Assembly: GCA_031263565.1 (NCBI GenBank)
Contig: JAISFR010000114.1
Coordinates: 1 to 64,000, forward strand
Origin: Candidatus Adiutrix sp.
GTDB taxonomy: Bacteria > Desulfobacterota > Desulfarculia > Adiutricales > Adiutricaceae
Reading direction: 5' to 3'
DNA: 64,000 bases
Part shown: positions 32,822 to 57,144 of the stretch, one piece after another
How positions within the stretch are numbered: position 1 is the first letter of the stretch
Layout: every line of letters starts with the position of its first letter
Made by a program: the position numbers and the translations under genes
The notes under the pieces: generated by a model
Told to the model about the DNA's origin: nothing
Database searches by the model: none
What the model saw: only the letters and a program-made list of their open reading frames with translations

Positions 32822-33838
32822 TTAAAGGCGCGATTCCCGCCGGCTGTGCTGCCGCAGTCTTTCCAGTCCTTCGGCCAGACTCACCGGCGCCTTAAAATCC
32901 AAATCCCTTTTCAGGCGGTCCAGGCGGAACCAGTGAGGCAGGCTCAGTTCTTCGGCCACAAAACCGGTCAAAGGCGGTTCGCCTTTAAGGCGCAGCAGGT
33001 ACCAGGCCCTTTCCAGGACCGAGCCGCCGGCCCGGCCCAGCCAGGCCGGCAGAAGGCCGGACGCTTTCAAGCTCTGACCGGGAGGGGAGACGGCCTGGAG
33101 TATCCTGGAAATCAGGTCGGGGGCGGTCAGCGGTTCCCCCTGGGCCACAAAATAGGCCCGGCCGCCTATCACGTCGCCCCGGCCCGCCCTGAAGAGCCCG
33201 GCGGCCGCCAGAAAAGCTTCGGCCGCGGTGTCGATGTAAGTGCCGTCCACCAGGGCCGTGGATTTCAGCAGCCATAAGCGCCCGGCCGCGGCTTTGGCTT
33301 TGAGGCGCGGCAAAAAATGGGGATCCCCCGGCCCCCAGATCAGGTGGGGGCGCAAGGCCGCGGTGCGGAAGCCCCCGGGCTGGTCGGCCGCCAGAATCAT
33401 CCGCTCGGCCAGCATCTTGGAATAGGCGTAAGGCCGCTCGGGCCGGGCCGCGTAAGGCGCGCTTTCATCCACCCCGTCCAGGGGCCGGCCGCTGTGGACC
33501 ACGCTGGGGGAACTGGCCCCCACCAGCCAGGCCGCGCCGCCCCGGCGGGCGGCTTCCAGAACATTGAAGCTGCCGACCAGATTGGCCTGAAGGTAATCGT
33601 CCAAGGGCCCCCAGACCCCGCTTTTGGCCGCGCAGTGGATGACCCCGTCCACCCCCCGGGCGGCGGCCCTGACGGCCGGCCCGTCCCGGAGGTCGGCTAA
33701 AAGCGTCTCCACCCCCCGGGCGGCGATCTCCGGGGCCGGCCGCCGGGTGACGGTCCGCACCGTCCAGCCGCGCTCCAAAAGAAAATCCAGGATCCGCCCG
33801 CCCAGGAAACCCTGGGCGCCGCTCAAAAGCACTTTCAT
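32822..33838 (-). CDS. OleD-like NAD(P)-dependent 2-alkyl-3-ketoalkanoate reductase / 3-beta-HSD family
   Basis: A 338-residue extended short-chain dehydrogenase. The Rossmann motif is GAQGFLGGRIL (residues 7-17), followed by GVIHCAAKSGVWG, the catalytic Ser region (GASSPSVVHSG) and the YAYSK motif. ALRPHLIWGPGDPHFLPRL and the C-terminal RLKGEPPLTGFVAEELSLPHWF closely match the pattern of OleD, which reduces the beta-ketoacid from OleA in long-chain olefin synthesis. No oleA, oleB or oleC is visible here. The start overlaps the SGNH-esterase stop (ATGA), so it belongs to the lipid cluster, probably reducing a keto group of its product. That role is inference. Confidence 0.82.
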   Translation of the reverse strand: MKVLLSGAQGFLGGRILDFLLERGWTVRTVTRRPAPEIAARGVETLLADLRDGPAVRAAARGVDGVIHCAAKSGVWGPLDDYLQANLVGSFNVLEAARRGGAAWLVGASSPSVVHSGRPLDGVDESAPYAARPERPYAYSKMLAERMILAADQPGGFRTAALRPHLIWGPGDPHFLPRLKAKAAAGRLWLLKSTALVDGTYIDTAAEAFLAAAGLFRAGRGDVIGGRAYFVAQGEPLTAPDLISRILQAVSPPGQSLKASGLLPAWLGRAGGSVLERAWYLLRLKGEPPLTGFVAEELSLPHWFRLDRLKRDLDFKAPVSLAEGLERLRQHSRRESRL

Positions 33839-35883
33839 TTTTTGCCCGACCTCAATTTTTCGCTCATAAATTCCAGATGCAGAGGCAGTTGAGACGACCA
33901 GAAGCGCCAGTCATGGCCGCCGGGGACCTCCCGGTAGAGGTGATCAATATTCAGGCCGACCAGAAGCCGGTGATAGGCCCGGTTTTCAGCCAAAGTCAGG
34001 CTGTCGGAAAGCCCGGCGCTGATGAGAAGCGGCTTCCCGGCCAGGACTTCGGGCCGGGCCCCGGTCAGGCGCCGGGCGTCGAAGGGCCGCCAGCGGCCGC
34101 CGCCCTCCCCGGCCGGCCCCAGAACCTTTTCAATTTTCAACTGCCGATTCAGTTTGTGGGAGTCGCCGGCGTGGGCGGCCAAATCGGTCACCGCGCTCAT
34201 GGCCCCCACGGCCTTGAACAGTTCCGGGTATTTCAGGGCCAAAGTCAGCGCCCCGTGCCCGCCCATGGAAAGTCCCGTAAGGCCCACCCGCTCCGGATCG
34301 GCCTCCGGCCGGGAACTCAGTATATGGGGCATCAATTCAGCGATCAGGTAGCTCTCAATGGCGCTTTCCAGGCCGTCAAGATACCAGCCGAACGGTTCGC
34401 CGTCAGGCATGACCAAAATCAGGCCGAAACGGTCGGCCAGTTCGGCCAGACGCCGGTCGCCCATCTGTTTGACCCAGGCGTCATGGCCGTCCCAGGCGCC
34501 GTGCAGCAAAAAAACCACCGGGTATGGGCCGGGGTATCCGGAACCGTCGCCCGGCAGAGCCAGATAATAGGCCGTCTCCTTATTGCGGAGCGGGGAGAAA
34601 AATTTCCGCTCGCTGATTCGGCCGCCGGCGGCCGGCAGATCGCTTTCATCCCGGCCGTCGCCGGCTGAAGGCGCCAAAGGCGGCTGTTCCCCGGGTTGGA
34701 CGGCCGGCGCCGGGCCCTCCTCTTCGCTTTTCTGGCGGTAATCGGCCCAGTCGGCCGTTTCGGCCAGAAATTGCTCGGCCATGATCCGGCCGCCGAACTC
34801 GGTCAGATGGATCTTGTCTTTACCCCGGACCCGGGCGCTCCTGCCCTGGGCGTCGGGCAGATAAGTGGAATAACACCCCTGGGCGTCGGCCACCGTCAGC
34901 CAGGAATCCCAAAAACGGCAATTGGGGGCCGCCTCGCAGCCGGCCCGGACCACTTGATTGATGACGGCCACCCGCGAGCCATAGGGCTCCAGCCCCATAA
35001 TCGGCAGGCCCACCCAGAAGACCCGGACTCCCCGGGCCTCGGCCCGGCCCAGAAGATCGGCGACCCGCTCGCCATAGATGCGCCGCCAGTCGTCGCCGCC
35101 CACCCCGACCCGCTTCTGGCCGGGACTGACCATATCCTGCGGATCATTGCCGCCGAGGGTCAGGATGACCAGATCGGGGCGGTATTTTTCCAGCATCTGG
35201 ACGAAATAAGCGAGCCAGTCGAAGTTGTCCAGACGGGTCAGCCCGGTGCCGTAGCGGCCGTCGCGGTTGACGCTCAGCCCTTCGTATTTCTTGAGTTCCC
35301 GCTGCAGTTGGGGTCCCAGCCCCTCCAGCATCATGGAGTCGCCCAGGAGGAGGACCCGGGCGGGGTTGAAGGAATCCGCCCCCGGGGTCCGGGCCCGGGC
35401 GGTCTCCCGGGGCAGAGCGGCCAGGAGTTTTTCGTCCGGCGCCGCGGAAGCGCCGGTCCCGGCGGCGGCGGTCGGCCCCGGGCCGTCGATCAATAGGGGC
35501 GCGGCTGGCCGGGGCTCGGGCGGCCGCCCTTCTCTGTCCGGAGGGGGAAGACCGGTGGCCATGGGGATCAGGGGGGGCGCGGCCGTCGGCGCCCCGGCCC
35601 GGGCGCCGATGGTCAGGTCGGCGGGAAATAGAGAGAGCAGACGGTCTTCATCGATTTTCAGGCGGCCCGGGCCCCAGGTCAGGACCTTTTCCCGGAGAGT
35701 CACGGCGGCGCTGAAGGCCAGTTCGGAAACCAGGCCCTCGCTGGACAGGGCCTGGTCGTCAAACCACTCGGCCAGCCGGCCGGCCTGATGCCAGCCCACC
35801 AGAAGGAAGGCCAGGCTGTAGACGAAAACCACCTTGGTGGGGTTCATGGTCCGGCGGCGGGCGCTCAGGCGCTCCCGGTTCAT
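33835..35883 (-). CDS. SGNH hydrolase (DUF459-like) fused to esterase D/antigen-85-like hydrolase
   Basis: A 682-residue two-domain enzyme. An N-terminal membrane helix (about 18-32) and a Pro/Ala-rich linker precede an SGNH domain (about 175-380): GDSMMLEG with Ser183, GGND with Asn246, and DKIH with Asp356 and His359. A second Pro-rich linker leads to an alpha/beta hydrolase domain (about 425-682): HGAWDGHDAW, nucleophile Ser539 in GLSMGG, probable Asp627 and His657 (PGGHDWRFW). Both active sites look complete. It probably faces the periplasm. It starts four bases after the PfaC-like stop and is ATGA-coupled to the OleD-like gene, so it may release or transfer the synthase product. The fusion is unusual in my experience. 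Confidence 0.8.
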   Translation of the reverse strand: MNRERLSARRRTMNPTKVVFVYSLAFLLVGWHQAGRLAEWFDDQALSSEGLVSELAFSAAVTLREKVLTWGPGRLKIDEDRLLSLFPADLTIGARAGAPTAAPPLIPMATGLPPPDREGRPPEPRPAAPLLIDGPGPTAAAGTGASAAPDEKLLAALPRETARARTPGADSFNPARVLLLGDSMMLEGLGPQLQRELKKYEGLSVNRDGRYGTGLTRLDNFDWLAYFVQMLEKYRPDLVILTLGGNDPQDMVSPGQKRVGVGGDDWRRIYGERVADLLGRAEARGVRVFWVGLPIMGLEPYGSRVAVINQVVRAGCEAAPNCRFWDSWLTVADAQGCYSTYLPDAQGRSARVRGKDKIHLTEFGGRIMAEQFLAETADWADYRQKSEEEGPAPAVQPGEQPPLAPSAGDGRDESDLPAAGGRISERKFFSPLRNKETAYYLALPGDGSGYPGPYPVVFLLHGAWDGHDAWVKQMGDRRLAELADRFGLILVMPDGEPFGWYLDGLESAIESYLIAELMPHILSSRPEADPERVGLTGLSMGGHGALTLALKYPELFKAVGAMSAVTDLAAHAGDSHKLNRQLKIEKVLGPAGEGGGRWRPFDARRLTGARPEVLAGKPLLISAGLSDSLTLAENRAYHRLLVGLNIDHLYREVPGGHDWRFWSSQLPLHLEFMSEKLRSGKK

Positions 35884-35886
35884 GGG

Positions 35887-38800
35887 TCAATCCTCGAGCA
35901 CGGCCAGAATTTTCCGGGCCAGGCCGAGGTTCAGGCCCCGCTTGCCCAGTTCGATAAGGCCGATCAGAGTGGCGGTCACCCCGACCTGGTCGGCCAGTTT
36001 CTTCTGACTCAGGCCCCTGGCCAGGCGCAGTTCCCGAAGCCGTTCCGGACTCAGCAGCCTGGAAGCGGCCTCCTTTTCCTCCCGCCGGCTTTTCAGGGTG
36101 CCCTTGGCCAGAATTTCCGAATGGCGCCCGGAGACCAGGCCGTCGTTCAATTCCCCGGCCAATATCAAATTGAGCTTTTCGGCCATCAGGGGGCTGATGT
36201 TGCGTTTGCCGCGCTCCATCAGGCTGATGTAGATGGAGGTCACCCCCATCAGCCTGGCCAGCTGGCCCTGGCTGAGGCCCTTTTCCCGGCGGAAGCCCAA
36301 AAGGCGATCGGGGGTGATGGCCGGCCCGCCGGCCCCGGCCCGGGCGGCCTTCAGCAGCCCGACCGTGAAGCCGCTTATTTTGTAGATGGGCAGACCATCG
36401 GCCATCAAGAGGCCGTCGGCAGTCAGGCTGCGCCCGGCCCGATTCTCCGAGCGGACCTGCAGGGCCAGGGACATTTCATGACGTTCCGGGGTGATCTGGC
36501 CGCGATAGAGCCATTCGTGACGGCCGCCACAGGCCGGGGCCGCCCAGGAATCCAGAGTTTCATCAGCGCCGAAACGCCGGCTGACCACCAGCTTCAGAGT
36601 CTGGATAAAGGCTTCCAGCCCCAGGGAGCCGGGCCAGACCGGATCTTGGTAAAAGTGGGCCTTGAAGAACCAGGCCTCGGGATCAACCGCGGCAACGGCA
36701 AAGGCCGCGCCCAGGGCTTCGGGGCCGCCCCGGGGGTCGACGCCGGCCCGCTCGATCATCCGCCAGCGGCCTTTGGGCCAGAGGGGACCTTCAGGGTAGG
36801 GTTCCATTTGGGCCGGGCGGGCCGGCCAGCCGTCAGGCTTCTCACCGGTCAGGCCGGCCTGGCGCGACAGGGCCAGGGGGCTGAAGAAGCCGAAATGGGT
36901 CAGACCTTCGTAAACCGGCCGCCCGCCGACCCGGCAAGTGAAGGAGAAATGCTGAATGACCATCTCGCCCGTCCGGCTGGAAGAGGTCAGTTTAGCGCTG
37001 GTCTCCACTTTCTGGCCGCCTTTGACCGGCGCCAGAACGGAGGCCCGACCGCCGAGGTTGCGGAAGTGCATGGGGCCTTGGAAAGGCAGGGCCGAGCCCA
37101 TATAGGCCGCCAGAAAGCCGCAGGGTTGAAGGGCTATCTCATTGAGAGCCGCATACGGCAGGGCCGGGTCGGCCCCGCCGGCCTCGCCGAAGAGCCAGGC
37201 GTCGGCGGGCGGGGTATAGACGGCCCGAACTTCAGAACCCACCAGCGCCTCATAGCGACGCCCGTTGACCACGACCGCCTGATCGACGAAATCATATGGC
37301 GGGCGGGGCAGACGGGCCACGAAGGCCCCGTCGTCAAAGCGGGCGTAGGCCCTCCCCAGAGCCTCGGAAGGACGGCCCTGGGCCAGGGCCAGCAAGCGCT
37401 CCTTGTTGAAGGTGTTTTCACTGTTCAGCGGCGTCGCTTCGGAGGCCGCCGGCCGGGACGGCCGCCCCGCCCAGACGGCTTTCAGTTTTTCCAGAGAGGA
37501 ACCGGCCAGGCGCAGATTGAGATTGCGAACCTCCACCACGGGTCGCTCGTCGGCCAGCATGACGGCCTCGGCCACGGCCACCGGCTCGGGCGGCTGGCCG
37601 GGTTCGAGGGCCTGGAAGCCCAGACGCCGAATATGCAGTTCATAGGCGGCCACCCGGGTGCGCGCGGTGACCTGGCCCCGGCATTTGAGGGCGGCGGGGA
37701 GACCTTTAACGGGCTGCCAGTCGTCCTGGCCGCTTTCCCCCACCCAGCCGGAAGCGGTCAAAAAGAGCCGCAGGGCATGGAGACAACTTTCATACATCAG
37801 GGTACCGGGCATGACCTCGTCGCCCACAAAGTGGCAGGTCAGAAACCAGGCCTGGGGATCGATGTCGATTTCGGCCCGGATAAAGCCGGCGCCATAGCGC
37901 CCCCCCCCTTTCTCCAGGCGGGTGACCCGGTCGATGAGGCTCATCCGTTCGCCGGGGAGAGACAGGGGATTCTTCAAAGCCGGCCGGAAGTCCGGCCCGA
38001 AAGCCCCGGCCAGATCACCCCGCCGAAAGGCCTGAAGCTGTTCCCGGCTCAGGGCGCCCGGCAGGACGGAGCGAAAAGCGACGGCCGCCGGATCCACCTC
38101 GGCCGGGGGAGCTTTATCCAAAAGGCCGCCGCCCGGCAGACCCCGCCCGCCGGCCAGTTCGGCCGGGGTGAAGAAGCCGGCGCAGCCGCCTTTCATGCTC
38201 AGGAGCGGCTGGCCGCCCGCCGTGCCCCGGAACTCGAAGCGGAAAAGGCGAGTCTGACCGTATTTGAAAAAGCGCAGAATGCGGATGTCGTAGCGGGCCG
38301 TTTCCCCGGCCCGGGGCAAAGCCCGATGAAAGGTGACTTCAGCATCCAAAAGCCGGTAAAAGGCCAGACCCCGGGTGGTGAAATCGGCTCCCAGCCAGGC
38401 CGAGAGCAGCAGGTCGGCCTGACCCGATTCAATGGCCAGCCCGGCCGGGATGTGCCCCTGATCCAGATACCAGGCCCCGGCCAGAATATCGTGTTCGGTG
38501 ACAATGCGGCCGGAAGTCATCGACAGGGGCCGCCCTTCCAGAGCCAGGACCCGGTCGACCAGCATCAGGGGTTCGTCCGGGAGCCGCACCCGGGAGGGGA
38601 AACGATCCGCCTCGCTGAAGCGGGGCCCCAGCACCCGGGCAATGCGGCCCACGGCAAATTCCAGGCAGTCGGCCCGGCTGAGGGGGGCCGGGCTGTCGGC
38701 CTTTTGAGCCGCCTCTTCCCTTAGCCTCAGTTCCCTATTTTCCGCCAGCCAGGAGTCGAAGGCGCCCCGGGCCTGGTCCACGGTCCGCCTGACCGGGTCG

Positions 38801-41800
38801 GCGGCCGCCGCCGGCGCCTCGACCGGCGGCTTTTCAGCGGCCGCCGGAACTTTGAAAATATCACGCTCTTCGGCGGCCTGGGCCAGAGCCTCTTCGGGCG
38901 ACGGCCACATTTCCGCGGTCGGGGCCAGGGTGACGGGCACCGGCAAGGCCAGGGAAGCCCCGGCGGCGTCCGGATAGAGAACCGACATTTTCAGGGGATA
39001 GCCGGCCATCCACAGTTCCACCAGCAAACGGTGCAGGCCCAGCCAGCCTTCATCATGGGCGCTGCCCGCCAGGCTGGAGGCCAGGTGGGGCTGCCCCTGG
39101 AGAATGTTGTTGATCATCCGGCTGCTGCCCGAGCCGGGCCCCACTTCCACGAAAAAGCGCACCCCGTCGGCATAGGCCTGCCGGATCAGACGGGTGAAAT
39201 CGTGGCCGCCAAGGGCCTGGTCGGTCAGGGAGCGGGCCGCGGTCCTGGAGTTGAGCTCATAGGCTTTAGCCCAGGCCGAGGAATAAAAACGCAGGCCGGG
39301 AGGGACCACCGTGGGCCGGGTGTGGAAGCGCTCATATTCGGCGATCACCGGCCTGACGCTGGGGTTGTGAACCGCGGCCACGCCTTCCAGAGAGCAGAGC
39401 ACCGCGGAAAGCGACTGGGCCAGGGCCCGCACCGCCCCCTCTTCGCCGCCCACCACCCCTTCGCCGGGGGTGTTGATCAGCAAGAGGAAAGCCCGGCCGC
39501 GATGGACCTCGGGCAGCCTGGCCAGGGCCTTGTTGATTTCCTCGGCCGAGCGGGGCAGAACGCCCATGACCCAGCGGAAAGGCCTGTCCTTGGGCCAGTT
39601 GAAATAGCGGCGGGCGGCCAGGTATTCGCCGGCCAGATCGTGGGTGAAGAGAGGCGATTTCATCAGGTCGTCATAAAGGCTTTCCCGGTCGCGCCAGGCC
39701 CCGGTGGCCACCAGGGCCGTGGTCTCGCCCAGGGAGTAGCCCAGAACCGCCTGGGGCACTACTTTGAACTGGTTGAGGACCCGGGCCCCCAAGAGGCCGA
39801 AGGAAACCTGGCCTAAAATGGCCTGAATGGGGCTGATGTCCTTCTGCCCCGGCCCCCAGAAGACCGGGCTCTGGAAATGGTCGGCCAGGCGGCTGACCCC
39901 GTCTTCCAATTGGCCCATCAAATGCGGAAAGCTCATGGCCAGGCGGCGGCCCAGGCCATGGTAATGACTGCCCGAACCGGGGAAGACCCAGGCCAGTTCG
40001 CCCCGCACCCGCTCGCCTTCCAGGGCCCAGATGATGCGCCCCTTCTGGTCGGGCGGCAGGGTCTGGGCCTCGCCGCGCAAACGGGCTCTGGCCTTTTTGA
40101 TCAAGCCCAGAAGGTCTTCAAAGCCCCGGGCCAGCATGGCCAGAATCGGCCGGGCCCCGGAAGCGTAACCGTATTCGGCCCAGAAGCGGTCCCCCAGGCG
40201 TTTCAAAGCCCGTTTTTCAGCCCGCACCGGCCCCAGCACCTCCACCAGATAGTGCTCGTTCTGGGCGGCCAGGGTCAAATTCTCCAGACGGTTCAGGAGG
40301 GCCAGGCTGTCCTCGCGGCTGCGGGCCCGCACCAGAAACCAGGTGGCGTCTTCATAGGAATAGGGCGGCGAAGAGACATCCTCCCCGCCTTTTTCGGTAA
40401 TGACGAAGCCGGGGGCTTCCAGGCTCCGGGGCGGGTCGCTCTTGTTTTTGATCCAATAGGCCGCGCCGGCGCCCAAACCTCTGGAAACCAGGCGGTGGCT
40501 GATGAAGAAAGCGTTCTTGACCAGGGTGAAGAGGCCGCCCAGGCCGCCCAGCCGGCCTTCAAGCTCCGGCAGTTCGGTCAGTTCCGGGGCCTGGCCCCGG
40601 CCGAGCGCGGCCGCGGCCTGGTCGGAGGCCAGAACCAGCATGGCCGCGCCCTCTTCCCACAAACGGCGGGGCGCCAGGGCGGCGGTTTTGGGGTCGCCCA
40701 TGCTGTCCACCACCCCGGCCAGGGCCAGATCGATCTCGCCGCGATTGATGGCGGCCATGGCCATTTTCAGGACCCTGAGCCCGGAAATGTTTTCTTCGGA
40801 AACCGTAAAGGCCGGGCCCCCGGAGCCGATGAAGCGGGCCACCCGGCTGGCCACCAGGCTGCCGAGGGCGCCCACCACCCGGCTGGCGGTCAGCCGGGGA
40901 TGACTGCGGCGACGCAGAACCTCGACAAATTCCGGCAGATCCCTGGCGCGCAGTTCGCCGGCGGCCACCAGGGCTTCGGCGGCCCGGAGCGGCCCCAGCC
41001 AGCGGAACGCGTAATCGGCCGAGCGGGGGTCGATGTCCACGCCCATGAAAATGCCCACCCGGGTCTTATCCACCCCCTGAGAACCGGCGGCCGCGCCCAG
41101 GCCGGTAATCACGGGCCGGCCGTGGGCCACATCCAGACGGGCGCTGGCCAGGGCCTCGTCGGCCATCTTCAGGGCCAGGGCCTGCTGGGGCAGAATATGG
41201 GCCAGATCCTTGGGCGCCATACGCAGAGAGGCCCCTTCCAGCACCAGGCTGTTAAAAAAGAGACCGGTGGCCTTCAGAGCCCCGAAACGGCGGGTGGCGA
41301 TGATGGGCGGTCCTTCCGAATCCATCCAGTTTTGAGCCAGAGAGGCGAAATCAGGCCAGGGCGCCGACAGGGCCCGGGCCGACAGAAGCCGCACCCGAGG
41401 CGGATCCCCGGGGCCGGAGCTGACGGCCCGGGGCCGGCCGCGGGCCGGCCTGACCCAGAGCTCGGGCCGGTATTCCTCGACAATGGCCTGGCCGTTAACC
41501 CCGCCGAAGCCAAAGGCGTTGACCGCGGCCAGACGCCCCCGCCAGTCGGGGGGAGCCGGCCAGGCTTCGGGGCGGGTCAGGACCCTTAAGGCCGGCTCGC
41601 CCGCCAGATTGAGCTCCGGGGCCTCTTGTTCAAAGCCGGCCGTGGGCGGCAGCACCGCCTTTTCCAGGGACAAAACCGCCTTGGCCAGGCCGGCCGCCGC
41701 GGCCGCCGACAGGAGGTGCCCGATATTGCTTTTGACCGAGCCGACGACCGGGGTGGTCTCGGCCGGGCCGCCGAAAGCGAATTCAGGATCGGCCAAAAGT

Positions 41801-42855
41801 TCCTTGAGGGTGGAAACCTCCACCAGGTCGCCCAGAATGGTGCCGGTGCCGTGGGCTTCGATGAGGCCGGCCGAACGAGGGCTGAGGCCGGCGTTCCGCC
41901 AGGCGGACTTCATGGCCCGCAACTGCCCTTCGGCCTGGGGGGCCAGGAGGTTCCCGGTCTGGTCGTTGGAGAGGCCCACGCCGCGAATGACGGCCCGGAT
42001 ATGGTCGCCGTGGGCCAGGGCCGTATCCAGGCGTTTGAGCACAAAGGCCACCGCGCCTTCCCCGACGATGAGCCCGTCGGCGCTCCGATCAAACGGCGTC
42101 AGACAGCCGGAGGCGGCCAGGGCCCTGAGCTGGCAAAAGCCCAGTTGGGTGAACAGGGCGTCGGCCTTGGCCACGCCGCCGCTGAAGACGGCTTCCAGGG
42201 AGCCGTTCAAAAGATCTTCGACGGCCAGGTGAACGGCGTAGAGCGACGAGGCGCAGGCCGCGTCCAGAGTATAGGCCGGGCCGCTGAAACCCAGGGACTG
42301 GGCCAGAAGCCGGGCCGAATAGCCCATCAGGCGGAAAGCGTCCCTGGGCGGCGGCTCCAGTTGGGGCTTGGTCGCCCAGTCGCGCGTGGCTTCCCGGGTG
42401 TAGAGGCTGACGGCCGCCTCGGCCATGGCCGTGGAAGGGAGGATGACATGCCCGGAAATGACCCCTACCTTGCCGGGATCGACCTTGTCCCATTTGACTT
42501 CCCGGGCCGCGTCGCGCCCGGCGGCCAGCCAGAAGGCCAGGGAGCCGTCGGCGCTTTTGGGGTCAAAACCTTCCGGCAGCTTCAGGCCTTCGGGATCAAT
42601 GGTCCGCCGATTATTGAAGGCGCCGTTCAGGCTGTAGGCCCGGTCCAGGGCCGGGCCGCCCTCCTGGTAAAAATGCTCCGGCTCGGCGCCCCAGTCCAGG
42701 GCCGTGGCCGGCTGGAAAAAGCGCCGCCTTTCCAGGATATTGTTCCAGAATTCGTCCACAGTCCCCGCGCCGGGCAGGCTCAGGCCCAAGCCGACCACGG
42801 CCGCCACTTCATGGGGCTGAGGCCTCTTTTTATCCGATTTATTCCGCGTAGTCAT
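35887..42855 (-). CDS. pfaC: PfaC-like polyunsaturated lipid synthase (KS-CLF-AT-DH-DH) with C-terminal tandem XRE HTH domains
   Basis: A 2322-residue megaenzyme in one uninterrupted frame. The KS (about 15-465) has Cys201 in DAACASS, His335 in EAHGTGT and His380. The CLF (about 540-760) aligns Asn689 with the KS cysteine, so it is not catalytic. The AT (about 950-1290) has Ser1041 in GYSLGE. Four hotdog units form two FabA-like DH domains: about 1395-1790 (His1675/Glu1689) and 1815-2170 (His2067/Glu2081), each pair 14 residues apart as in FabA. Residues 2181-2234 and 2269-2322 are two helix-turn-helix domains of XRE type (GLSQGQLARLMGVTSIYISL and GLSQKKLADQVGVTATLIGL). Myxobacterial Pfa3 has the same KS-CLF-AT-DH-DH order but ends in a lysophospholipid-type acyltransferase. 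It follows pfaA by about 20 bases. Confidence 0.92.
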   Translation of the reverse strand: MTTRNKSDKKRPQPHEVAAVVGLGLSLPGAGTVDEFWNNILERRRFFQPATALDWGAEPEHFYQEGGPALDRAYSLNGAFNNRRTIDPEGLKLPEGFDPKSADGSLAFWLAAGRDAAREVKWDKVDPGKVGVISGHVILPSTAMAEAAVSLYTREATRDWATKPQLEPPPRDAFRLMGYSARLLAQSLGFSGPAYTLDAACASSLYAVHLAVEDLLNGSLEAVFSGGVAKADALFTQLGFCQLRALAASGCLTPFDRSADGLIVGEGAVAFVLKRLDTALAHGDHIRAVIRGVGLSNDQTGNLLAPQAEGQLRAMKSAWRNAGLSPRSAGLIEAHGTGTILGDLVEVSTLKELLADPEFAFGGPAETTPVVGSVKSNIGHLLSAAAAAGLAKAVLSLEKAVLPPTAGFEQEAPELNLAGEPALRVLTRPEAWPAPPDWRGRLAAVNAFGFGGVNGQAIVEEYRPELWVRPARGRPRAVSSGPGDPPRVRLLSARALSAPWPDFASLAQNWMDSEGPPIIATRRFGALKATGLFFNSLVLEGASLRMAPKDLAHILPQQALALKMADEALASARLDVAHGRPVITGLGAAAGSQGVDKTRVGIFMGVDIDPRSADYAFRWLGPLRAAEALVAAGELRARDLPEFVEVLRRRSHPRLTASRVVGALGSLVASRVARFIGSGGPAFTVSEENISGLRVLKMAMAAINRGEIDLALAGVVDSMGDPKTAALAPRRLWEEGAAMLVLASDQAAAALGRGQAPELTELPELEGRLGGLGGLFTLVKNAFFISHRLVSRGLGAGAAYWIKNKSDPPRSLEAPGFVITEKGGEDVSSPPYSYEDATWFLVRARSREDSLALLNRLENLTLAAQNEHYLVEVLGPVRAEKRALKRLGDRFWAEYGYASGARPILAMLARGFEDLLGLIKKARARLRGEAQTLPPDQKGRIIWALEGERVRGELAWVFPGSGSHYHGLGRRLAMSFPHLMGQLEDGVSRLADHFQSPVFWGPGQKDISPIQAILGQVSFGLLGARVLNQFKVVPQAVLGYSLGETTALVATGAWRDRESLYDDLMKSPLFTHDLAGEYLAARRYFNWPKDRPFRWVMGVLPRSAEEINKALARLPEVHRGRAFLLLINTPGEGVVGGEEGAVRALAQSLSAVLCSLEGVAAVHNPSVRPVIAEYERFHTRPTVVPPGLRFYSSAWAKAYELNSRTAARSLTDQALGGHDFTRLIRQAYADGVRFFVEVGPGSGSSRMINNILQGQPHLASSLAGSAHDEGWLGLHRLLVELWMAGYPLKMSVLYPDAAGASLALPVPVTLAPTAEMWPSPEEALAQAAEERDIFKVPAAAEKPPVEAPAAAADPVRRTVDQARGAFDSWLAENRELRLREEAAQKADSPAPLSRADCLEFAVGRIARVLGPRFSEADRFPSRVRLPDEPLMLVDRVLALEGRPLSMTSGRIVTEHDILAGAWYLDQGHIPAGLAIESGQADLLLSAWLGADFTTRGLAFYRLLDAEVTFHRALPRAGETARYDIRILRFFKYGQTRLFRFEFRGTAGGQPLLSMKGGCAGFFTPAELAGGRGLPGGGLLDKAPPAEVDPAAVAFRSVLPGALSREQLQAFRRGDLAGAFGPDFRPALKNPLSLPGERMSLIDRVTRLEKGGGRYGAGFIRAEIDIDPQAWFLTCHFVGDEVMPGTLMYESCLHALRLFLTASGWVGESGQDDWQPVKGLPAALKCRGQVTARTRVAAYELHIRRLGFQALEPGQPPEPVAVAEAVMLADERPVVEVRNLNLRLAGSSLEKLKAVWAGRPSRPAASEATPLNSENTFNKERLLALAQGRPSEALGRAYARFDDGAFVARLPRPPYDFVDQAVVVNGRRYEALVGSEVRAVYTPPADAWLFGEAGGADPALPYAALNEIALQPCGFLAAYMGSALPFQGPMHFRNLGGRASVLAPVKGGQKVETSAKLTSSSRTGEMVIQHFSFTCRVGGRPVYEGLTHFGFFSPLALSRQAGLTGEKPDGWPARPAQMEPYPEGPLWPKGRWRMIERAGVDPRGGPEALGAAFAVAAVDPEAWFFKAHFYQDPVWPGSLGLEAFIQTLKLVVSRRFGADETLDSWAAPACGGRHEWLYRGQITPERHEMSLALQVRSENRAGRSLTADGLLMADGLPIYKISGFTVGLLKAARAGAGGPAITPDRLLGFRREKGLSQGQLARLMGVTSIYISLMERGKRNISPLMAEKLNLILAGELNDGLVSGRHSEILAKGTLKSRREEKEAASRLLSPERLRELRLARGLSQKKLADQVGVTATLIGLIELGKRGLNLGLARKILAVLED
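35890..36315 (-). other. C-terminal tandem XRE-type HTH module of the PfaC-like synthase
   Basis: This segment encodes two Cro/cI-like helix-turn-helix domains joined by a charged linker of about 34 residues, in the same frame as the dehydratase domains. The first reads LLGFRREKGLSQGQLARLMG, and the second reads LRELRLARGLSQKKLADQVG. The stop codon ends the second domain immediately. There is no internal stop, frameshift or start site that would clearly make it a separate gene. Confidence 0.88.
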
Positions 42856-42876
42856 AACCGACCCTAAATTTATATC

Positions 42877-45800
42877 TTATAGTGAAGCTAAATCCGTGGC
42901 CGGTCCCAGAACCACCACTTCCACCGGATCGTTCTTGGGCGCCCCGGTCAGGGCGGCGAAAAAACGGGCGCCTTCAGCCAGGGGGATCAGTCCCACGCCT
43001 TCGGATTCGAAGAGCCGCTTAAGACCGCCGTCGACCATGCCGCCTGCCCAGGGCCCCCAATTGACCGACAGGCATTTGGACCCCTGGCGAAGGCCGGCGC
43101 AGGCCCGGGCCAGTTTGTTGAGCACCTCGTTGCCGGCCGCGTAGTCGGCCTGCCCCCGACGCCCGAAGCGGGCCGTGCTGGAGGAGAAAAAGGCGATCAG
43201 GCTGAGAGGCTGGCCGGCCAGTTCATCGAGAATCAAAGCGGCCATTTGAGCCTTGGTGTTGAAGACCAGATCGAAATCCGCGTCCTTTTTGTCCAGCAAA
43301 AGACTGTCGGCCAGAACCCCGGCGCCGTGAATGAAGCCGCAAATGGGGCCGTGACGGTCTTTGACGTCGCTCAGGGCGGTCCTGAGGCGGTCGAGGTTTT
43401 CGAAATTGCCGGATAAATAGGTCACCTTGGCCCCGACTTTTTCCATGGCCGCGATATTGGCCCGGATTTCCCGGCCGGCCAGCAGAAGACGGCTGTCTCT
43501 GGCCAGTTCCAGGGGGCCGGGCTTGACCTCGGCCCGGTCGAAGAGAGCCTGGCGAACGGCGGCCTCGTCCTTAAGCGCGGCCAGCCAGGCCGGCTCGGCA
43601 GGCGCCAGGGGGGTCCGCCCTAAAATGACCAGATTGGGCCGATAAGCCCGGGCCACTTCCTTTAAGGCGGCGGCGGTCACCCCCCGGGCGCCGCCGGTGA
43701 CCAGCACGGTCTGCCCTTCCCGCAGATGCCGCACCCGGATATTCTTTAATTTATAGGGCGACAAAGCCGGGGCCCCCAGTTCCCGGGGACCGCCCAGACC
43801 TATTTCCACCGGGGCGCCTTCAGCGGCGCAGGCGGCCGCCAGGCCCGGCCGATAGAGCTCAAAGACCGGCCCGTAGGCCTCAGGCGGCAGATCCAAAGCC
43901 AGGACCCTGACCTGGGGCCATTCGCGGGCCGCGCTCTTTAAAAGCCCGGTCAGGGCGGCCGAAGCCGGGGCCAGGCCGGCCTCGGAGCCCGCCAAGGCAA
44001 AGTCGCCGCCCATAAAAGTGAGACCCAGAAGCAGGGCCCGTTCCCCTTGCCCGGCCGCCTTGAGCAGGGCCGGGCCGGCGCCGCGCACCGCCCGGAAGGC
44101 CCTGGCCGGCAGATCCAGATCATTGAGCTGGCCCGGCCAGACCAGAATCAGGCCCCGGAGCGTTTCGGGCTCATCGAATTCCTCAAAATCAGACCAGCCC
44201 AGACGGACCGGGCGCTGCCCTCCATCCCGCAGCAGGTTCTCCAACCCCTGGCCCACGGGCCCGGGCTCGGCCACGATCAGCACCCGGTCGCCCGAATCAA
44301 GGCCCAGGCCATCGGGCGCGGTTTCCGGCCAGGGCCAGGGTTTCATCTGAACCTTAAAGGCCGAAACCGAACTGGTCCGGGTGACGACCGGAGCTTCCTC
44401 CTCGGCAGCCTTGAAGGCCGGCGGGCTGTTTTTCGGCGGCCGGCCCGGACCCCGCCGCCGGGGTCTGATCGAGGCGGCCGGGACGGAGGCGACCTCCTGG
44501 GCGACCGGGCCGGAGCCGACGGCCGGCGAATCAGTCGGCTTCGGCCGACCGGCCCTGGATTTCAGCAGAATATCCCGCAGATCGCCCAGAGTCACGGCCC
44601 CGCTCAATATCTCGGCCGCCGGGGCGCTCAGGCTGTCGTCGCCCAGTTTTTCGCTCAGGGCGGCCATGATCTCCACCCGTTTGATGGAATCCAGGCCCAG
44701 GTCAGCCTCCAGAGCGGATTCAAAGCGCAGCATCTCCTGCGGATAACCGGTTTCCGCGGCCACCACTTCCAGCAGAAGATCGCCCGGCGGCTGAACGGTC
44801 ACGAGAGCCCGTTCAGGAGCGGCCGGAGCCCGGTCGGCCGCCTGATTCACGAAGGCCGCCAGATCGCCGATGGTCGCCAGGCCGGCCAGGGCTTCGCCGG
44901 CGCCCAGGGCCGGAAGCCCCTCAAGCCGCTCGCTCAGGGCCGCCATTATTTCCACTTTTTTAATGGAATCCAGACCCAGGTCGGCCGCCAGATTCATCGA
45001 CGGCCGCAGCATGTCGCGAGGGTAGCCGGTCTCCCGGGAAAGTACTTCCATGACCATTTCAGAGGCCGAAAAATCGGCCGACGGTCTCCGCGGCGGCTGT
45101 TCCGGCCAGGCGGCCGGAGGCCGGTCCGCCGGGGCGGAAGCCAGTTCCAGGGCGGCGGCCAAATCGGCCAGGGTCCGGGCGCCGCTTAAAACTTCAGCCG
45201 AAACCTGACCGGCCCCCGGCAGCCGCTCGCTCAGGGAACCGGCTATTTCCACCAGCTTGATGGAATCCAGGCCCAGATCGTCGCCCAGGCGCATCCGGGG
45301 ATCAAGCATTTCCGGGGGATAGCCGGTCTCCCCGGCCACCACTTCCCGCAGAAGCGGCCAGAGCCCGGGCCCGGCCGCCGACGCCTCGGTCGCCTCCGGG
45401 CCCGGCGAAGGCCGGCCGGACCGGGCCAGGGCTATCAGATCCTTGAGGGTGCGGGCCCCGCTCAGGCTTTCAGCCTCCAGGCCCGGCCCGGCCGCGAGCT
45501 TTTCGCTCAACACGGCCATGATCTCCACCTTCTTGATGGAATCCAGGCCCAGGTCGCTTTCCAGATCCATGTCGGCCTTCAACATTTCCACGGGATAGCC
45601 GGTCTCTCCGGCCACCACGCCCAGGACCAGATTTTCCGTCTCGGCGGCCGCGGAATCGGCCGGCGCCGCCGGAGGGGCGGCGGGCGCCGGAGCCGGGGGA
45701 GCGCCCTGCAATTTCACAGGCGCCTCCGAAGTTGTCCGCCTATCCAGCTCACGGCTCATCAGGCTCAGGACGTCGGATTGCTGCCTGAGGAATTCCTGGT

Positions 45801-48237
45801 GCAGGCGAGCGGTTTCCGTGCTCAGACTGTCCAGCAGATCCAGAGCCGAGCGGCCGGCCGGGGCCTCCGGGGGGGTCGCTTTGGCTTTGGAAGGCGGCAG
45901 CGACTTTTTGACGAAGTAGTTGGCCCCGCTGATCATGACCGTAAAAGTGCCGGCCGGATCGGCCTGGGCGCCCAGAACATTTTCCGGCCAGGCCTGAAAA
46001 TCCACCGGCAGGCCCCAGGCGGCCAGGCGGGCCAGCAGACAGGCCAGATCCAGAGAACCGCCCTGGTCGCCATCCAGGGCCAGGGCCTGACGGCCGGCCC
46101 CGGAGGCGGCCTGGGCCAATTTCCGGCCCGGGCCCAGTTCCAGCCAGAGATCGATATTTTTATTGGCGGCCTTCGCCAGTTCCTGGGCCAAAGAGGCCGG
46201 GGACTCCAGGCCGCTGATGACGGCCGAAGCCGTCAGGCCGAATTTCCCCAAAAGCCCGGTCAAACCCCGCTGCAGGGCCGAAACCGCGATCTTCCGCAGC
46301 CGGCCGTCGCCCAGGTCAGCGCTCCAGGCGGCCTGCTTTTCCGGGGAAGCCAAATCCGGCGGATAAAGGGCCAGGTCCAGCGGGGCCAGTTCCGGGGCGG
46401 CGGCCGCCAGTTCGGCGGCGGCCTGGCTCAGGGCCGCGATCAGCTCCGGGCGTTCGGCCACCAGGGCCCGATATTGATCCGGCTTCAGTTCGGCGGGGGC
46501 GGACATCAGAAAACCCAGGGCCGAGGCCCTGGCCGGACCGGAGCTGAAAAACGCGCCTTCCGGGAAATCCGCTTCCTTTACTTCCGGGCGATCCAGAATC
46601 CGGACGCTTTCGCTGATCAGCGAGGGCAGATGCTCGACCGGCGAGACCAGGACCAGACGGCAGCCGGCGGCCGGTTCAAAGTTCTCCCGGGCCCGACGGG
46701 CGGCCGAAGACGGCTCATCAGCCAAAAATTCATTCAGGCGGCCGACCAGGCCGGCCGGACTGTCGGCGCCGACGGGCAGCAGCTCCAGCCCGAAAGGCCC
46801 CTCGGCCACCGCCTTTTCAGGCCCGGCTTCCTCCAGCACGCAGTGAAAATTGCTGCCCCCGAAGCCAAAGGCGCTGACCCCGGCCCGGCGGGGGCCGGCC
46901 GAAAGCCAGGGCCGGGGGCGGGTGGAAAGATGAAAGGGGGAAGCCGGCGCGGTCAGAATCGGCAGCGGCGCCCGAACTTTGGCCGCCGGCGGCAACGTCT
47001 TGAAATACAGGGCCAGGGCGGCCTTGAGCAGCCCGGCCGCGCCGGCGGCGGCCTTGGTGTGGCCGATCTGGGACTTGACCGAACCCAGGGCGCACCAGGG
47101 CCGGCCGATTTCCGCCCGGGGGCTCTGGCTGAAAACCTGGCTCAGGGCCTCGACTTCCACGGCATCGCCCACGGCCGTGCCGGTTCCGTGACCTTCCACC
47201 ATTTCCACGGTCTCGGCCCCGAAACCGGCCTGCTCATAGGCGTCTTTCAAAGCCCGAACCTGCCCTTCGGCACTCGGGGCAAAAACGGCCGCGCCCTTGC
47301 CGTCGCTGGAGGAACCCACGCCGCGAATAACGGCGTAAACCCGGTCTCCGTCGCGCCGCGCGTCATTCAGCCTTTTCAGGACCAGCATCCCCAGGCCCTC
47401 ACCCAGCATGGTGCCGTCGCCGTCGCGGTCGTAAGCCCGAACCTCGCCGGAAGGGGCCAGGGCCGGGGTTTTGGAAAAACAAGTGTACATGAAGGGATCG
47501 CTGAAGGTGTCCAGCCCGCCGCTGAGCACCAGATCGGCCCGGCCGGAATTCAGTTCCATCAGGCCCTGGCGGACGGCGGCCAGAGAGCTGGCGCAGGCGG
47601 CGTCCACCACCAGGTTGGCGCCGCCCAGGTTCAGGCGGTTGGCGATGCGGCCGGCGGTGACGTTGCCCAAAAGGCCCGGAAAGGAATTCTCTTTCCAGGG
47701 GGCGAATTCAGAGGCGAAACGGGCCAGCACCTCTTCGGCCACCGACCCGGCCACCCCGCTGTCGGCCAGAGCCCGGCGCAGTTGGGGATGAGCCAGCCGG
47801 GAGCCCAGGCTGACCACTATCTTCATGGCCCCGGTCACCCCCAGCATGACCGCCGTGCGGCGATGATCCCAACCGTTGTCGGCGCTGTAGCCGGCATCTT
47901 TCAAGGCCAGGTCGGCGGCCACCAGCCCCAGGAGCTGGGTGCTGTCAATGGCCGACAAATCATTGGGCACAATGCCGTATTTGAGGGGCTCAAAGGCGAC
48001 GGGCTCCAGAAAGCCGCCCCGGCGGCCATAGGTCTTATCCTCGGCCTTGGGATCGGGGTCGTAATATTCAGACGGCGACCAGTGGTCCTCCGGAATATCG
48101 CCGACGGCTTCCCGGCCGCTTTTTAACAGAGCCCAGTAGGCGGCCAGGTCGGGGGAGCCGGGGAAGAGACAGCTGAGGCCGATAATGGCCACCGGTTCGG
48201 CCGTTATTTCCCGGGGACTGGAATTATCCTGAGTCAT
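42877..48237 (-). CDS. pfaA: PfaA-like polyunsaturated lipid synthase (KS, eroded AT, four ACPs, KR)
   Basis: A 1786-residue megaenzyme. The KS (about 12-470) has Cys215 in DAACASS, His350 in EGHGTGT and NFHC near 464. The following 280 residues occupy the acyltransferase position but lack a GHSxG nucleophile; only the late AT-like LWLELGPG survives. Four ACPs each carry LGLDSIK with phosphopantetheine serines near 900, 992, 1091 and 1184. The ketoreductase (about 1509-1760) has TGGARGVT and the Ser-Tyr pair in SSSTARFG...DYAAGN. There is no dehydratase domain; those are in the PfaC-like partner. A basic RPRRRGPGRPPKN linker (about 1258-1270) precedes the KR. It works with PfaC, PfaD and a phosphopantetheinyl transferase to build a long unsaturated acyl chain. 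The product is not predictable. Confidence 0.93.
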   Translation of the reverse strand: MTQDNSSPREITAEPVAIIGLSCLFPGSPDLAAYWALLKSGREAVGDIPEDHWSPSEYYDPDPKAEDKTYGRRGGFLEPVAFEPLKYGIVPNDLSAIDSTQLLGLVAADLALKDAGYSADNGWDHRRTAVMLGVTGAMKIVVSLGSRLAHPQLRRALADSGVAGSVAEEVLARFASEFAPWKENSFPGLLGNVTAGRIANRLNLGGANLVVDAACASSLAAVRQGLMELNSGRADLVLSGGLDTFSDPFMYTCFSKTPALAPSGEVRAYDRDGDGTMLGEGLGMLVLKRLNDARRDGDRVYAVIRGVGSSSDGKGAAVFAPSAEGQVRALKDAYEQAGFGAETVEMVEGHGTGTAVGDAVEVEALSQVFSQSPRAEIGRPWCALGSVKSQIGHTKAAAGAAGLLKAALALYFKTLPPAAKVRAPLPILTAPASPFHLSTRPRPWLSAGPRRAGVSAFGFGGSNFHCVLEEAGPEKAVAEGPFGLELLPVGADSPAGLVGRLNEFLADEPSSAARRARENFEPAAGCRLVLVSPVEHLPSLISESVRILDRPEVKEADFPEGAFFSSGPARASALGFLMSAPAELKPDQYRALVAERPELIAALSQAAAELAAAAPELAPLDLALYPPDLASPEKQAAWSADLGDGRLRKIAVSALQRGLTGLLGKFGLTASAVISGLESPASLAQELAKAANKNIDLWLELGPGRKLAQAASGAGRQALALDGDQGGSLDLACLLARLAAWGLPVDFQAWPENVLGAQADPAGTFTVMISGANYFVKKSLPPSKAKATPPEAPAGRSALDLLDSLSTETARLHQEFLRQQSDVLSLMSRELDRRTTSEAPVKLQGAPPAPAPAAPPAAPADSAAAETENLVLGVVAGETGYPVEMLKADMDLESDLGLDSIKKVEIMAVLSEKLAAGPGLEAESLSGARTLKDLIALARSGRPSPGPEATEASAAGPGLWPLLREVVAGETGYPPEMLDPRMRLGDDLGLDSIKLVEIAGSLSERLPGAGQVSAEVLSGARTLADLAAALELASAPADRPPAAWPEQPPRRPSADFSASEMVMEVLSRETGYPRDMLRPSMNLAADLGLDSIKKVEIMAALSERLEGLPALGAGEALAGLATIGDLAAFVNQAADRAPAAPERALVTVQPPGDLLLEVVAAETGYPQEMLRFESALEADLGLDSIKRVEIMAALSEKLGDDSLSAPAAEILSGAVTLGDLRDILLKSRAGRPKPTDSPAVGSGPVAQEVASVPAASIRPRRRGPGRPPKNSPPAFKAAEEEAPVVTRTSSVSAFKVQMKPWPWPETAPDGLGLDSGDRVLIVAEPGPVGQGLENLLRDGGQRPVRLGWSDFEEFDEPETLRGLILVWPGQLNDLDLPARAFRAVRGAGPALLKAAGQGERALLLGLTFMGGDFALAGSEAGLAPASAALTGLLKSAAREWPQVRVLALDLPPEAYGPVFELYRPGLAAACAAEGAPVEIGLGGPRELGAPALSPYKLKNIRVRHLREGQTVLVTGGARGVTAAALKEVARAYRPNLVILGRTPLAPAEPAWLAALKDEAAVRQALFDRAEVKPGPLELARDSRLLLAGREIRANIAAMEKVGAKVTYLSGNFENLDRLRTALSDVKDRHGPICGFIHGAGVLADSLLLDKKDADFDLVFNTKAQMAALILDELAGQPLSLIAFFSSSTARFGRRGQADYAAGNEVLNKLARACAGLRQGSKCLSVNWGPWAGGMVDGGLKRLFESEGVGLIPLAEGARFFAALTGAPKNDPVEVVVLGPATDLASL

Positions 48238-48378
48238 TGAAGTCTTACCTTGAACATTACTTATTTTTTCATCCCGGCCCGGGCAGTTGAAACAGCAAAA
48301 CGCTCCGGGCGGGGCAACCTTGTTAAAGGCGCTCCACAGCGTCTTTCACAAATCAGGCCAGATCGCCTTCTTGAGGCC

Positions 48379-49917
48379 TCAATTCAAATAGGTCTTTATT
48401 TCAGATATGGGCCGGGGCTTTAAGGCCGGCGCCGCCCCGAAAGGCAGAACCCCCAGGGCCACGGCCAGGTTCCGGCGGGCCAGCACGGCCGCCCCGTAAA
48501 GCAGGTTGAGGGCCAGATCCATCACCCGCCGATTTTCGGGAGCTTCAAAGACGCTGCCTTTGGCCCATTCATTGAAAGCCCCCTGGGCCGGGCCGCAGAA
48601 AATCTGCCAGTCGGGGCGCCGGTCTTCCACCCCGCCGATGGCCCAGCGGGAAGCCTGCCCCAGGTACCAGCGAAAAACCAGGGCCATTTTGTATTTCGGG
48701 TCGCCTTCGGCCCTGAGCACCTGGGCCGGGTCACGTTCCCCGAAGAAGGCGCGGGTCTGGGCCCAGATGTCGGCCAGGGGCTGCTTGAATATCTGGGTCT
48801 CGAACATTTCGCGGTCAGCGGCCGGGATATCGTCCAGGGAGGCGCACTGATGATAGGCTTCGGCCAGCTTCTGGGCCCTCATGGCGTAAAGGGTTCCGAA
48901 TTTCAAGACCTGAACCTTGGCGCCCAGTTCAAACATATCCGCCGCCGGCCCCTGGACCATGTCGGCCTGGCCGGCCCTGGCCAGGAGTTCCCGGCCGGCC
49001 GGGGCCAGACCCGACTCCAGGCAGGACTGATTGATGGAAGCGGTGACCACGTAAGAGGCCCCCACCGAGGCGGCGGCCAAAAGGGCCGCGGGCGTGCCGA
49101 TGCCGCCGGCCGCGCCCACCCTCAGGGGGACGGCGTAGTTGTATTTTTCGGTCATCTCCCGGGCGGCGGCGGCCATGGCCGGCCACAAGGGCAGCGAGGG
49201 GCGAAAATCGGTATGGCCGCCGCTGTCGGCCTCGGCGGTCAGGTCGCCGGCCATGGGGACAAAGGGGGCCAGGGCGGCCTCGGCCTCGTTCAGCCAGCCG
49301 CGCTTAAGACATTCCTTGACCAGCTTGTCAGGCGGCGGGGCGAAAAAGCGGCGGGCCAGTTCCAGCCGGGAAACCTTGGCCAGAATCCGGTTGGGCGTAA
49401 AAATGGAGCCGTCAGGCCGCCGGGCCGCGCCGCTCAAGCGGTAGCGCACCAGGGAAGGGGTCAGTTGCATGAAAGCCGAGGCTTCGATAACCCGCACCTG
49501 GCGCTTCAGGTATATTTCCGCGGCCTTCTCCTCCCAGGACGGGTCCTGAGGGGTGTGGATCAGGCAGGCGCCGAAGGCCCGGCCGGCCAGTTCCCCGCTC
49601 AGGGCGGCCACCTCTTCGTCCACCCGGGCCGGGGTCAGACCGGAAGCGCCCAGAAAGCCCAGGGCGCCGCCCTCGGCCAGGGCCTTGACCATGGCCCGGG
49701 AACTGATGGCCCCGACCATGGAGCCGCCCACATAGGCGTATTTCAGGCCATATTCAGCCTTGAAGGCGGGGCTCCCGAAAGAGGAGGGGGGCAGCGCGGG
49801 GATGATCCCCCGCAGGTGGTCGTCCTCAGGCCCGCCCAGACTGCCGTCGGCCCTGATATATACCCTTTGTCCGGGATCTTCTAGAAGCCGCAGCAGTTTT
49901 TGCTGATCTTGCATCAT
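48379..49917 (-). CDS. pfaD: PfaD-like FMN enoyl reductase of the lipid synthase
   Basis: A 512-residue protein of typical PfaD length and sequence. It has an N-terminal lid (RLLEDPGQRVYIRADG), a TIM-barrel 2-nitropropane-dioxygenase-like core with KYAYVGGSMVGAISSRAMVKALAEGGALGFLGASG, the FMN loop RVGAAGGIGTPAALLAAASVGASYVVTASINQS, and a C-terminal domain ending with FCGPAQGAFNEWAKG. In Pfa systems this separate reductase saturates selected double bonds, deciding the final unsaturation pattern. It lies between the phosphopantetheinyl transferase (20 bases) and pfaA (141 bases) on the same strand. Confidence 0.94.
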   Translation of the reverse strand: MMQDQQKLLRLLEDPGQRVYIRADGSLGGPEDDHLRGIIPALPPSSFGSPAFKAEYGLKYAYVGGSMVGAISSRAMVKALAEGGALGFLGASGLTPARVDEEVAALSGELAGRAFGACLIHTPQDPSWEEKAAEIYLKRQVRVIEASAFMQLTPSLVRYRLSGAARRPDGSIFTPNRILAKVSRLELARRFFAPPPDKLVKECLKRGWLNEAEAALAPFVPMAGDLTAEADSGGHTDFRPSLPLWPAMAAAAREMTEKYNYAVPLRVGAAGGIGTPAALLAAASVGASYVVTASINQSCLESGLAPAGRELLARAGQADMVQGPAADMFELGAKVQVLKFGTLYAMRAQKLAEAYHQCASLDDIPAADREMFETQIFKQPLADIWAQTRAFFGERDPAQVLRAEGDPKYKMALVFRWYLGQASRWAIGGVEDRRPDWQIFCGPAQGAFNEWAKGSVFEAPENRRVMDLALNLLYGAAVLARRNLAVALGVLPFGAAPALKPRPISEIKTYLN

Positions 49918-49937
49918 GTCTCTACCTTGTCGTTGTT

Positions 49938-50627
49938 TTATTCAGGGCCCGGCTCTTGCTGGAAAGAGCCGGCCAGGGCCAGGAGATGTTCCGCCCGGTT
50001 AAAAAGCGCCACCCGGCTTTGCCGGCGGGGTTCCGCCAACCAGTCCACCCACAGGAGCCCAGAGCGCCAGTCGGCCCGGGTGACGCGGACTTTATCCAGA
50101 TGCTTCAAAAGCGCCCGCCCCCATGATTTGGCGGCGGCTTCGCGGCCGCACCACAAAGCCAGGGCCGGGGAAAAGCGGCTGCCCGCGCCTTGGTCGATCA
50201 GAGTCAACTCCCGCCCATTAAAAGCCCAGCGGCGGACCCGCTCGCCCAAGGCCCGATCCCGACGTTCCAGATCCACCCCCAACGGCCGGCCGGAGACCGC
50301 CGCCAGGGCCGCGCCGGGACAGTGACTGATGGAAAGGCAGCCTGAAAAATCCGGGCGGCCCGGCCAAACCAGGAGCGGCTCGCCTTCCGGCCCGTTGAAT
50401 ATTTCCGGATCGCCGCCGGCCGGCTTCCAGAACTCGACCGCCGCGGCCTTGGCCGCCCAGCGCCCCAGGAGCCAGGCCCGGTAAGCGGCGGATGATCTTT
50501 TTTCGCGGCCGCGAGCCGTCTCCTTCGGACCGAGCCGGCTTTCATAAACCCCGACGGGCAGGGCCGGGTCATCCAGAAGCAGGGTCAGGGTCAGGTCCGA
50601 ATTGTTAATAAAATGCCGTATATTCAA
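49938..50627 (-). CDS. Sfp-type 4'-phosphopantetheinyl transferase
   Basis: A 229-residue protein starting at a TTG (50627); no in-frame ATG lies near and the first residues are LNIRHFINNSDLTLTLLL. The family motifs are SISHCPGAALAAVSG, GVDLE with the two magnesium ligands (near residue 118), and LWCGREAAAKSWGRAL, equivalent to WxxKEA with Arg replacing Lys. It installs the phosphopantetheine arm on the four ACPs of PfaA, matching the role of PfaE. It is the first gene of the lipid-synthase operon. Confidence 0.88.
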   Translation of the reverse strand: MNIRHFINNSDLTLTLLLDDPALPVGVYESRLGPKETARGREKRSSAAYRAWLLGRWAAKAAAVEFWKPAGGDPEIFNGPEGEPLLVWPGRPDFSGCLSISHCPGAALAAVSGRPLGVDLERRDRALGERVRRWAFNGRELTLIDQGAGSRFSPALALWCGREAAAKSWGRALLKHLDKVRVTRADWRSGLLWVDWLAEPRRQSRVALFNRAEHLLALAGSFQQEPGPE

Positions 50628-52769: not shown

Positions 52770-52804
52770 CTCTGTCCGATATTGACAGAGCCTAATAATC
52801 TTTT
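52770..52804 (+). terminator. weak terminator between rimO unit and tamB
   Basis: CTCTGTC and GACAGAG pair across a 7-base loop (52770-52790), followed after 8 bases by TTTTTT. It lies in the 38-base gap between convergent genes. The T-run is a little far, so efficiency is doubtful. Confidence 0.35.
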
Positions 52805-57111: not shown

Positions 57112-57144
57112 CAATAGAACCTGTATATATTTCCCGGCGTCGAT

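Follow-up and report, generated by a model that had tools for sequence, protein, structure and literature searches.

In Shewanella, the products of a Pfa polyunsaturated-lipid synthase feed OleA, and the ole genes are either clustered with pfa or located elsewhere (PMC6463001). Geobacter bemidjiensis, a carrier of a Type I pfa cluster, makes hentriacontanonaene (C31:9); ole genes may sit elsewhere in a genome than pfa, and many other Pfa clusters yield fatty acids (PMC3098273). Here we describe a pfa locus in a 64,000-nucleotide window (positions 1 to 64,000 of contig JAISFR010000114.1, GenBank assembly GCA_031263565.1), which is part of a 2.97-Mb draft genome of “Candidatus Adiutrix”, arthropod-gut bacteria. 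Six open reading frames (ORFs), all on the minus strand between positions 32822 and 50627, encode a 4′-phosphopantetheinyl transferase (PPTase), PfaD, PfaA, PfaC, an SGNH/esterase hydrolase, and OleD. We suggest, with a probability of roughly 0.6, that this locus provides the Pfa half of a Pfa–Ole polyunsaturated-hydrocarbon system with dispersed ole genes, and that a helix-turn-helix (HTH) tail on PfaC autoregulates the operon.

A scan of 84,980 genomes for PfaC returned 80 loci, 77 of them outside the genus and mostly in Desulfuromonadales, planctomycetes, gammaproteobacteria, Elusimicrobia, and Verrucomicrobia. The same Pfa genes have oleABCD as neighbours in Geobacter, Malonomonas, planctomycetes, and others. 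OleD follows pfaC by approximately 3–6 kb in 44 of the 77 outside loci, several others ending too early to tell, and where the intervening gap was read it holds OleA, OleB, and OleC, often with a PPTase gene after them. In the genome of the window, the same gap is occupied by the SGNH/esterase gene. The locus shares with the Type I clusters of Geobacter, Desulfuromonas, and planctomycetes (pfaDAC-oleABCD; PMC3098273) the PfaD-PfaA-PfaC order, a PfaBC protein fusing ketosynthase (KS), chain-length factor (CLF), acyltransferase (AT), and dehydratase (DH), and the co-encoded OleABCD and PPTase. It differs from them in that oleA and oleBC are elsewhere in the genome and, of the ole genes, the operon contains oleD alone, PfaA lacks its malonyl-acyltransferase (MAT) and C-terminal DH, PfaC carries two HTH domains, and the SGNH/esterase gene separates pfaC from oleD. 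With the pfaABCDE and oleABCD genes of Shewanella and Photobacterium (C31:9; PMC6463001) it would share the passage of Pfa acyl chains to OleA and the possible separation of ole from pfa; the AT fused into PfaC, the MAT-degenerate PfaA, the HTH fusion, and the gene order are different. Compared with Xanthomonas-type OleABCD, the catalytic residues of OleA and homologues of OleB, OleC, and OleD are shared, whereas the Adiutrix genes occupy three loci and their sequences are divergent (33–47% identity to pfa-linked homologues).

The ORFs and domain matches confirmed the six genes, coordinates, single strand, and ATGA overlap given in the first-pass annotation, and the matches of PfaD, PfaA, and PfaC bore out its assignment of a Pfa-type secondary-lipid cluster. 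The PPTase gene (49938–50627; TTG start; ACPS PF01648, 39 bits) is first in the operon and has a homologue at the same place in the same-genus genomes G001–G005. It is followed by the gene for the PfaD enoyl reductase (48379–49917; TIGR02814, 538 bits, cut-off 449). In transcription order, the intergenic spacings are 20, 141, 21, and 3 bp, with a 4-bp ATGA overlap before oleD; G001 and G003 have this overlap too, and in G002 the two genes are approximately 30 bp apart. The order PPTase-PfaD-PfaA-PfaC-SGNH/esterase-OleD is kept in G001, G002, and G003 and was recovered as contig fragments in G004 and G006, while only a PPTase-PfaD-PfaA contig was assembled in G005. The genomes sharing it, for which the first-pass annotation had advised a search, include the closed chromosome of Deltaproteobacteria bacterium Smac51. 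Amino-acid identity within the genus is approximately 42–75% per operon gene. Given this conservation, the six-gene order is real and, as far as the compared genomes indicate, selected. The gene 3′ of oleD in Smac51 is unrelated to the valS found there in the window, which fits an operon that ends at oleD.

PfaC (35887–42855; 2322 residues) is a PfaBC fusion with the order KS-CLF-AT-DH-DH-HTH-HTH, as assigned from ketoacyl-synt, two FabA, and two HTH_3 matches and a PfaB-family AT. KS, CLF, and FabA-type DH are all present, and the second KS lacks the active-site Cys. The PfaB-type AT (39097–40008; residues 950–1253; TIGR02816, 77.6 bits) has a GYSLGE motif and is the sole intact-looking AT of the synthase, which thus appears to possess a single cis AT, in PfaC. 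PF00698 has one other match in the genome, to a stand-alone FabD-like gene on contig C86. Plasmid relatives of PfaC were distant matches only, none with 80% coverage.

PfaA (42877–48237) comprises KS, a degenerate MAT, four acyl carrier proteins (ACPs; PP-binding), and a ketoreductase (KR), without a C-terminal DH; its score of 983 bits lies just under the TIGR02813 cut-off of 1010. The Pfam search found no Acyl_transf_1 match in PfaA, which accordingly lacks the malonyl transferase domain usual in this family. In the MAT remnant (approximately 45898–46581), the catalytic GHSxGE and approximately 200 residues have been lost. In contrast, the PfaA proteins of Geobacter, Malonomonas, planctomycetes, and gammaproteobacteria retain GHS[YF]GE at the aligned site, and Acyl_transf_1 scores 109 bits in that of Geobacter. 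Both the MAT motif and the C-terminal DH, each present in Geobacter, are missing from PfaA of the genus and of the sister genera examined. Because PfaA is without the MAT motif, we call the cluster a variant rather than a plain member of the Pfa type. If the PfaA MAT is dead, malonyl loading must come from the AT of PfaC or from FabD in trans.

Our analysis revealed three features that the first-pass annotation had missed: the degenerate MAT of PfaA, a pair of HTH domains on PfaC, and a conserved promoter element. The XRE-type HTH domains follow the second DH of PfaC (Pfam HTH_3, E 5.9e-17, in two stretches). Domain 1 lies at approximately 36157–36312, as delimited by HTH_3 and the AlphaFold helices, and domain 2 at 35893–36051 (HTH_3 at residues 2273–2320; pLDDT approximately 89–95). 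In the predicted structure, the tail consists of two five-helix domains, each resembling in fold the autoregulatory C-proteins C.AhdI and C.BclI, HipB/HigA, and SinR; the Foldseek E-values are weak, as expected at such a small size. Unlike these XRE proteins, the Adiutrix pair is fused to the C-terminus of a lipid synthase, and a brief literature search found no precedent for an HTH fusion to a polyketide or fatty-acid megasynthase.

The tail is present in all five genus members with an assembled PfaC end, the closed chromosome among them, which ruled out an assembly or frameshift artefact. Its overall conservation approximately equals that of the PfaC catalytic domains, and the second recognition helix (residues 2284–2303 in domain 2) is 90–100% identical in G001–G003 and only 65% identical in G006. 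The tail is absent from all 28 sister-genus PfaC proteins of the family and from the pfa loci outside the genus, so that a general trait of Pfa clusters was also ruled out; in other families of the class, PfaC gave no match at all.

Ahead of the PPTase gene, the window and G001–G004 share a conserved block of approximately 70 bp, and a pattern scan found one pfa-linked copy in each; the few other pattern matches in these genomes were rejected as unrelated AT-rich stretches. In the best 70-column stretch of the alignment of four genus members, 35 columns are invariant, compared with a mean of 8 and a maximum of 12 after shuffling. In the window, this putative promoter/operator element reads CTATTTATTTA..TTGATTCAT..GTATANATTG (50680–50752, minus strand). 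It was not found upstream of pfaD in the five sister-genus regions inspected.

The PfaC tail probably binds this element, and the operon is probably autoregulated, as judged from the domain and element conservation. Binding of the tandem XRE domains ahead of the PPTase gene would let the synthase set the expression of its own operon according to its level or acyl load. Somewhat more tentatively, at a little under even odds in our estimate, PfaC may be both a megasynthase and a transcription factor, with its expression tied to the amount or occupancy of the synthase in the style of a trigger enzyme, in a synthase without the PfaA MAT.

XRE folds can also act as protein–protein modules. The HTH pair may therefore have no regulator role and be a docking or structural module, with a partner protein or the nucleoid as the anchor point of the synthase; this alternative competes only with the regulatory part of our proposal. 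We consider it rather doubtful, since the canonical XRE sequence is kept in both domains, G001–G003 have a nearly invariant second recognition helix, and the genus conserves a cis-element specific to the operon. Once the novelty originally proposed is set aside, a real and different oddity is left: a lipid megasynthase with built-in predicted DNA-binding domains and a genus-specific putative control element.

The last gene of the operon (32822–33838) encodes an OleD-clade 2-alkyl-3-oxoalkanoate reductase. OleD (NF042422) scores 301 bits, versus 79 bits for the next unrelated family. In a tree of 38 OleD proteins and 12 short-chain dehydrogenases/reductases (SDRs), some of the latter long-branched, the locus OleD falls with pfa-linked OleDs (split 99), apart from the generic SDRs of the same genomes. 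The OleDs of the Adiutrix family form one clade (100) separate from the other pfa-linked OleDs, and both are jointly apart from the generic SDRs. The score gap and tree ruled out a generic sugar epimerase or SDR, and the OleD-type identity withstood the phylogeny that the first-pass annotation had named as its refuting test. In sister genera, oleD is apart from pfa and stands alone between genes reading by eye as ligA and mutL; among the family genomes compared, this genus alone has oleD within the pfa operon.

The remaining Ole enzymes are encoded in the same genome, OleA on contig C77 (21066–22076) and adjacent OleB and OleC on contig C3 (37880–40461). OleA matches PRK09258 at 352 bits (cut-off 285), and its catalytic Cys, Glu (RD-x-x-EPS), His, and Asn all align to the X. 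campestris OleA structures. OleB has the Asp nucleophile in HDWGG, and OleC scores 562 bits with the olefin beta-lactone synthetase model. OleA matches were obtained in 37 of 37 Adiutrix-family genomes and OleB and OleC each in 33. The absence of OleA/B/C, as first described, is thus true of the locus alone; a genome-wide absence was ruled out by these matches. By its gene content, the Ole pathway is complete but scattered over three loci. Directly 3′ of oleC (contig C3, L206:10570–13194) lie three closely similar tandem genes resembling formylglycine-generating-enzyme-like secreted proteins.

The likeliest output of the locus, by analogy with published Pfa–Ole systems, is a polyunsaturated olefin. 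The PPTase would activate PfaA, PfaC, and PfaD, which would use the four ACPs to assemble a polyunsaturated acyl chain, with malonyl units supplied as described above. OleA would then join two chains head to head, OleD would reduce the resulting 2-alkyl-3-keto acid, OleC would close the beta-lactone, and OleB would decarboxylate it to an internal olefin.

Alternatively, the Pfa synthase may make polyunsaturated fatty acids (PUFAs) for membrane phospholipids or glycolipids independently of Ole, with oleD a chance passenger in the operon. The genus-specific linkage of oleD to pfa would fit such a passenger, as would the fatty acids produced by many Pfa clusters elsewhere. However, pfa adjoins oleABCD in several phyla, and all four ole functions occur in nearly every pfa-bearing genome of the family, which makes this alternative unlikely.

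The gene between pfaC and oleD (33835–35883) encodes a two-headed envelope hydrolase or acyltransferase, predicted to consist of an N-terminal membrane anchor, a PatB-like DUF459 SGNH domain (191 bits), and a PF00756 esterase domain (81 bits). Its N-terminus has a hydrophobic segment, and the DUF459 domain shows GDS, GGND, and DKIH for the expected GDS, GxND, and DxxH. Both domains match solved members of the PatB/OafB-type SGNH DUF459 acyltransferase-esterases and the CE1 feruloyl esterases, respectively (PatB, 7tjb; feruloyl esterase, 7xrt), with the catalytic motifs present by eye; the Adiutrix protein differs in fusing both on one membrane-anchored chain, and this fusion is family-wide, being found in 34 of 37 Adiutrix-family genomes. 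At ten sister-genus loci inspected (L226, L227, and L230–L237) the hydrolase gene accompanies two ABC exporter genes; at nine of the ten, genes reading as rpsB-tsf-pyrH-frr immediately precede the hydrolase gene. Genus members possessing a clear orthologue keep the ABC genes at another place. This placement in a ribosomal-protein/ABC-exporter operon ruled out a Pfa-specific enzyme and speaks against the Pfa tailoring role first proposed. Relocation of the gene beside pfaC appears to be genus-specific and probably has little bearing on its substrate; the protein may be a membrane-anchored envelope enzyme drawn under the same control as the pfa operon. In the genus member G001, oleB-oleC lies a few kilobases from rpsB-tsf (C68:38000–54000, L208), where sister genera have the hydrolase gene.

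More unlikely still is the new end product originally suggested (a polyunsaturated hydroxy acid, ester, or ketone, formed from a Pfa-derived keto acid by OleD in the absence of OleA/B/C and released or transferred by the two-headed hydrolase): wherever the region is assembled in a genus member, its pfa operon includes OleD and the SGNH/esterase, and OleD scores under its equivalog cut-off, but no such product is needed with OleA, OleB, and OleC encoded in the same genome, sister genera carry the hydrolase in a separate operon not linked to pfa, and its membrane anchor points to the periplasm.

Several observations weigh against a dispersed Pfa–Ole pathway with an autoregulated operon. The OleA of Adiutrix is just 33% identical to the pfa-linked OleA of Malonomonas, and the 562 bits of OleC fall below the curated olefin-specific NCBI cut-offs of 850–900. 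Likewise, the 301 bits of OleD are below the NCBIfam equivalog cut-off of 580, as are the pfa-linked OleDs of Malonomonas (460) and Geobacter (450). The loss of the MAT and C-terminal DH of PfaA could alter the chain produced. The conserved element contains a TTGATT/17-bp/TACATT pair that could be the promoter itself, and the element may be just a strong sigma-70-like promoter. Furthermore, neither oleA nor oleBC is preceded by a copy of the element, so that the motif defines no single regulon, and a regulon joining pfa to oleA/oleBC through it was dropped.

Elsewhere in the window, also on the minus strand, a TamB gene adjoins that of an Omp85 protein (52792–59112); the two form a translocation and assembly module pair and lie immediately upstream of the pfa region. 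A 486-residue ORF (61691–63151) is an unusual fusion of an RsmG/GidB methyltransferase (residues 33–192) and a SpoU rRNA methylase (349–474). A 2052-residue ORF (16054–22212), with only a short sub-threshold match to the PilY1 beta-propeller, is possibly a giant pilus-tip adhesin.

The comparison removes the false lead of a new Ole-like product and connects polyunsaturated-hydrocarbon biosynthesis with a lineage of arthropod-gut symbionts. A PfaA that has lost its MAT throughout the family offers a natural case for the question of which AT performs the loading in a PUFA synthase. Should the HTH tail bind the promoter of its own operon, a giant lipid synthase would keep transcription informed about itself.

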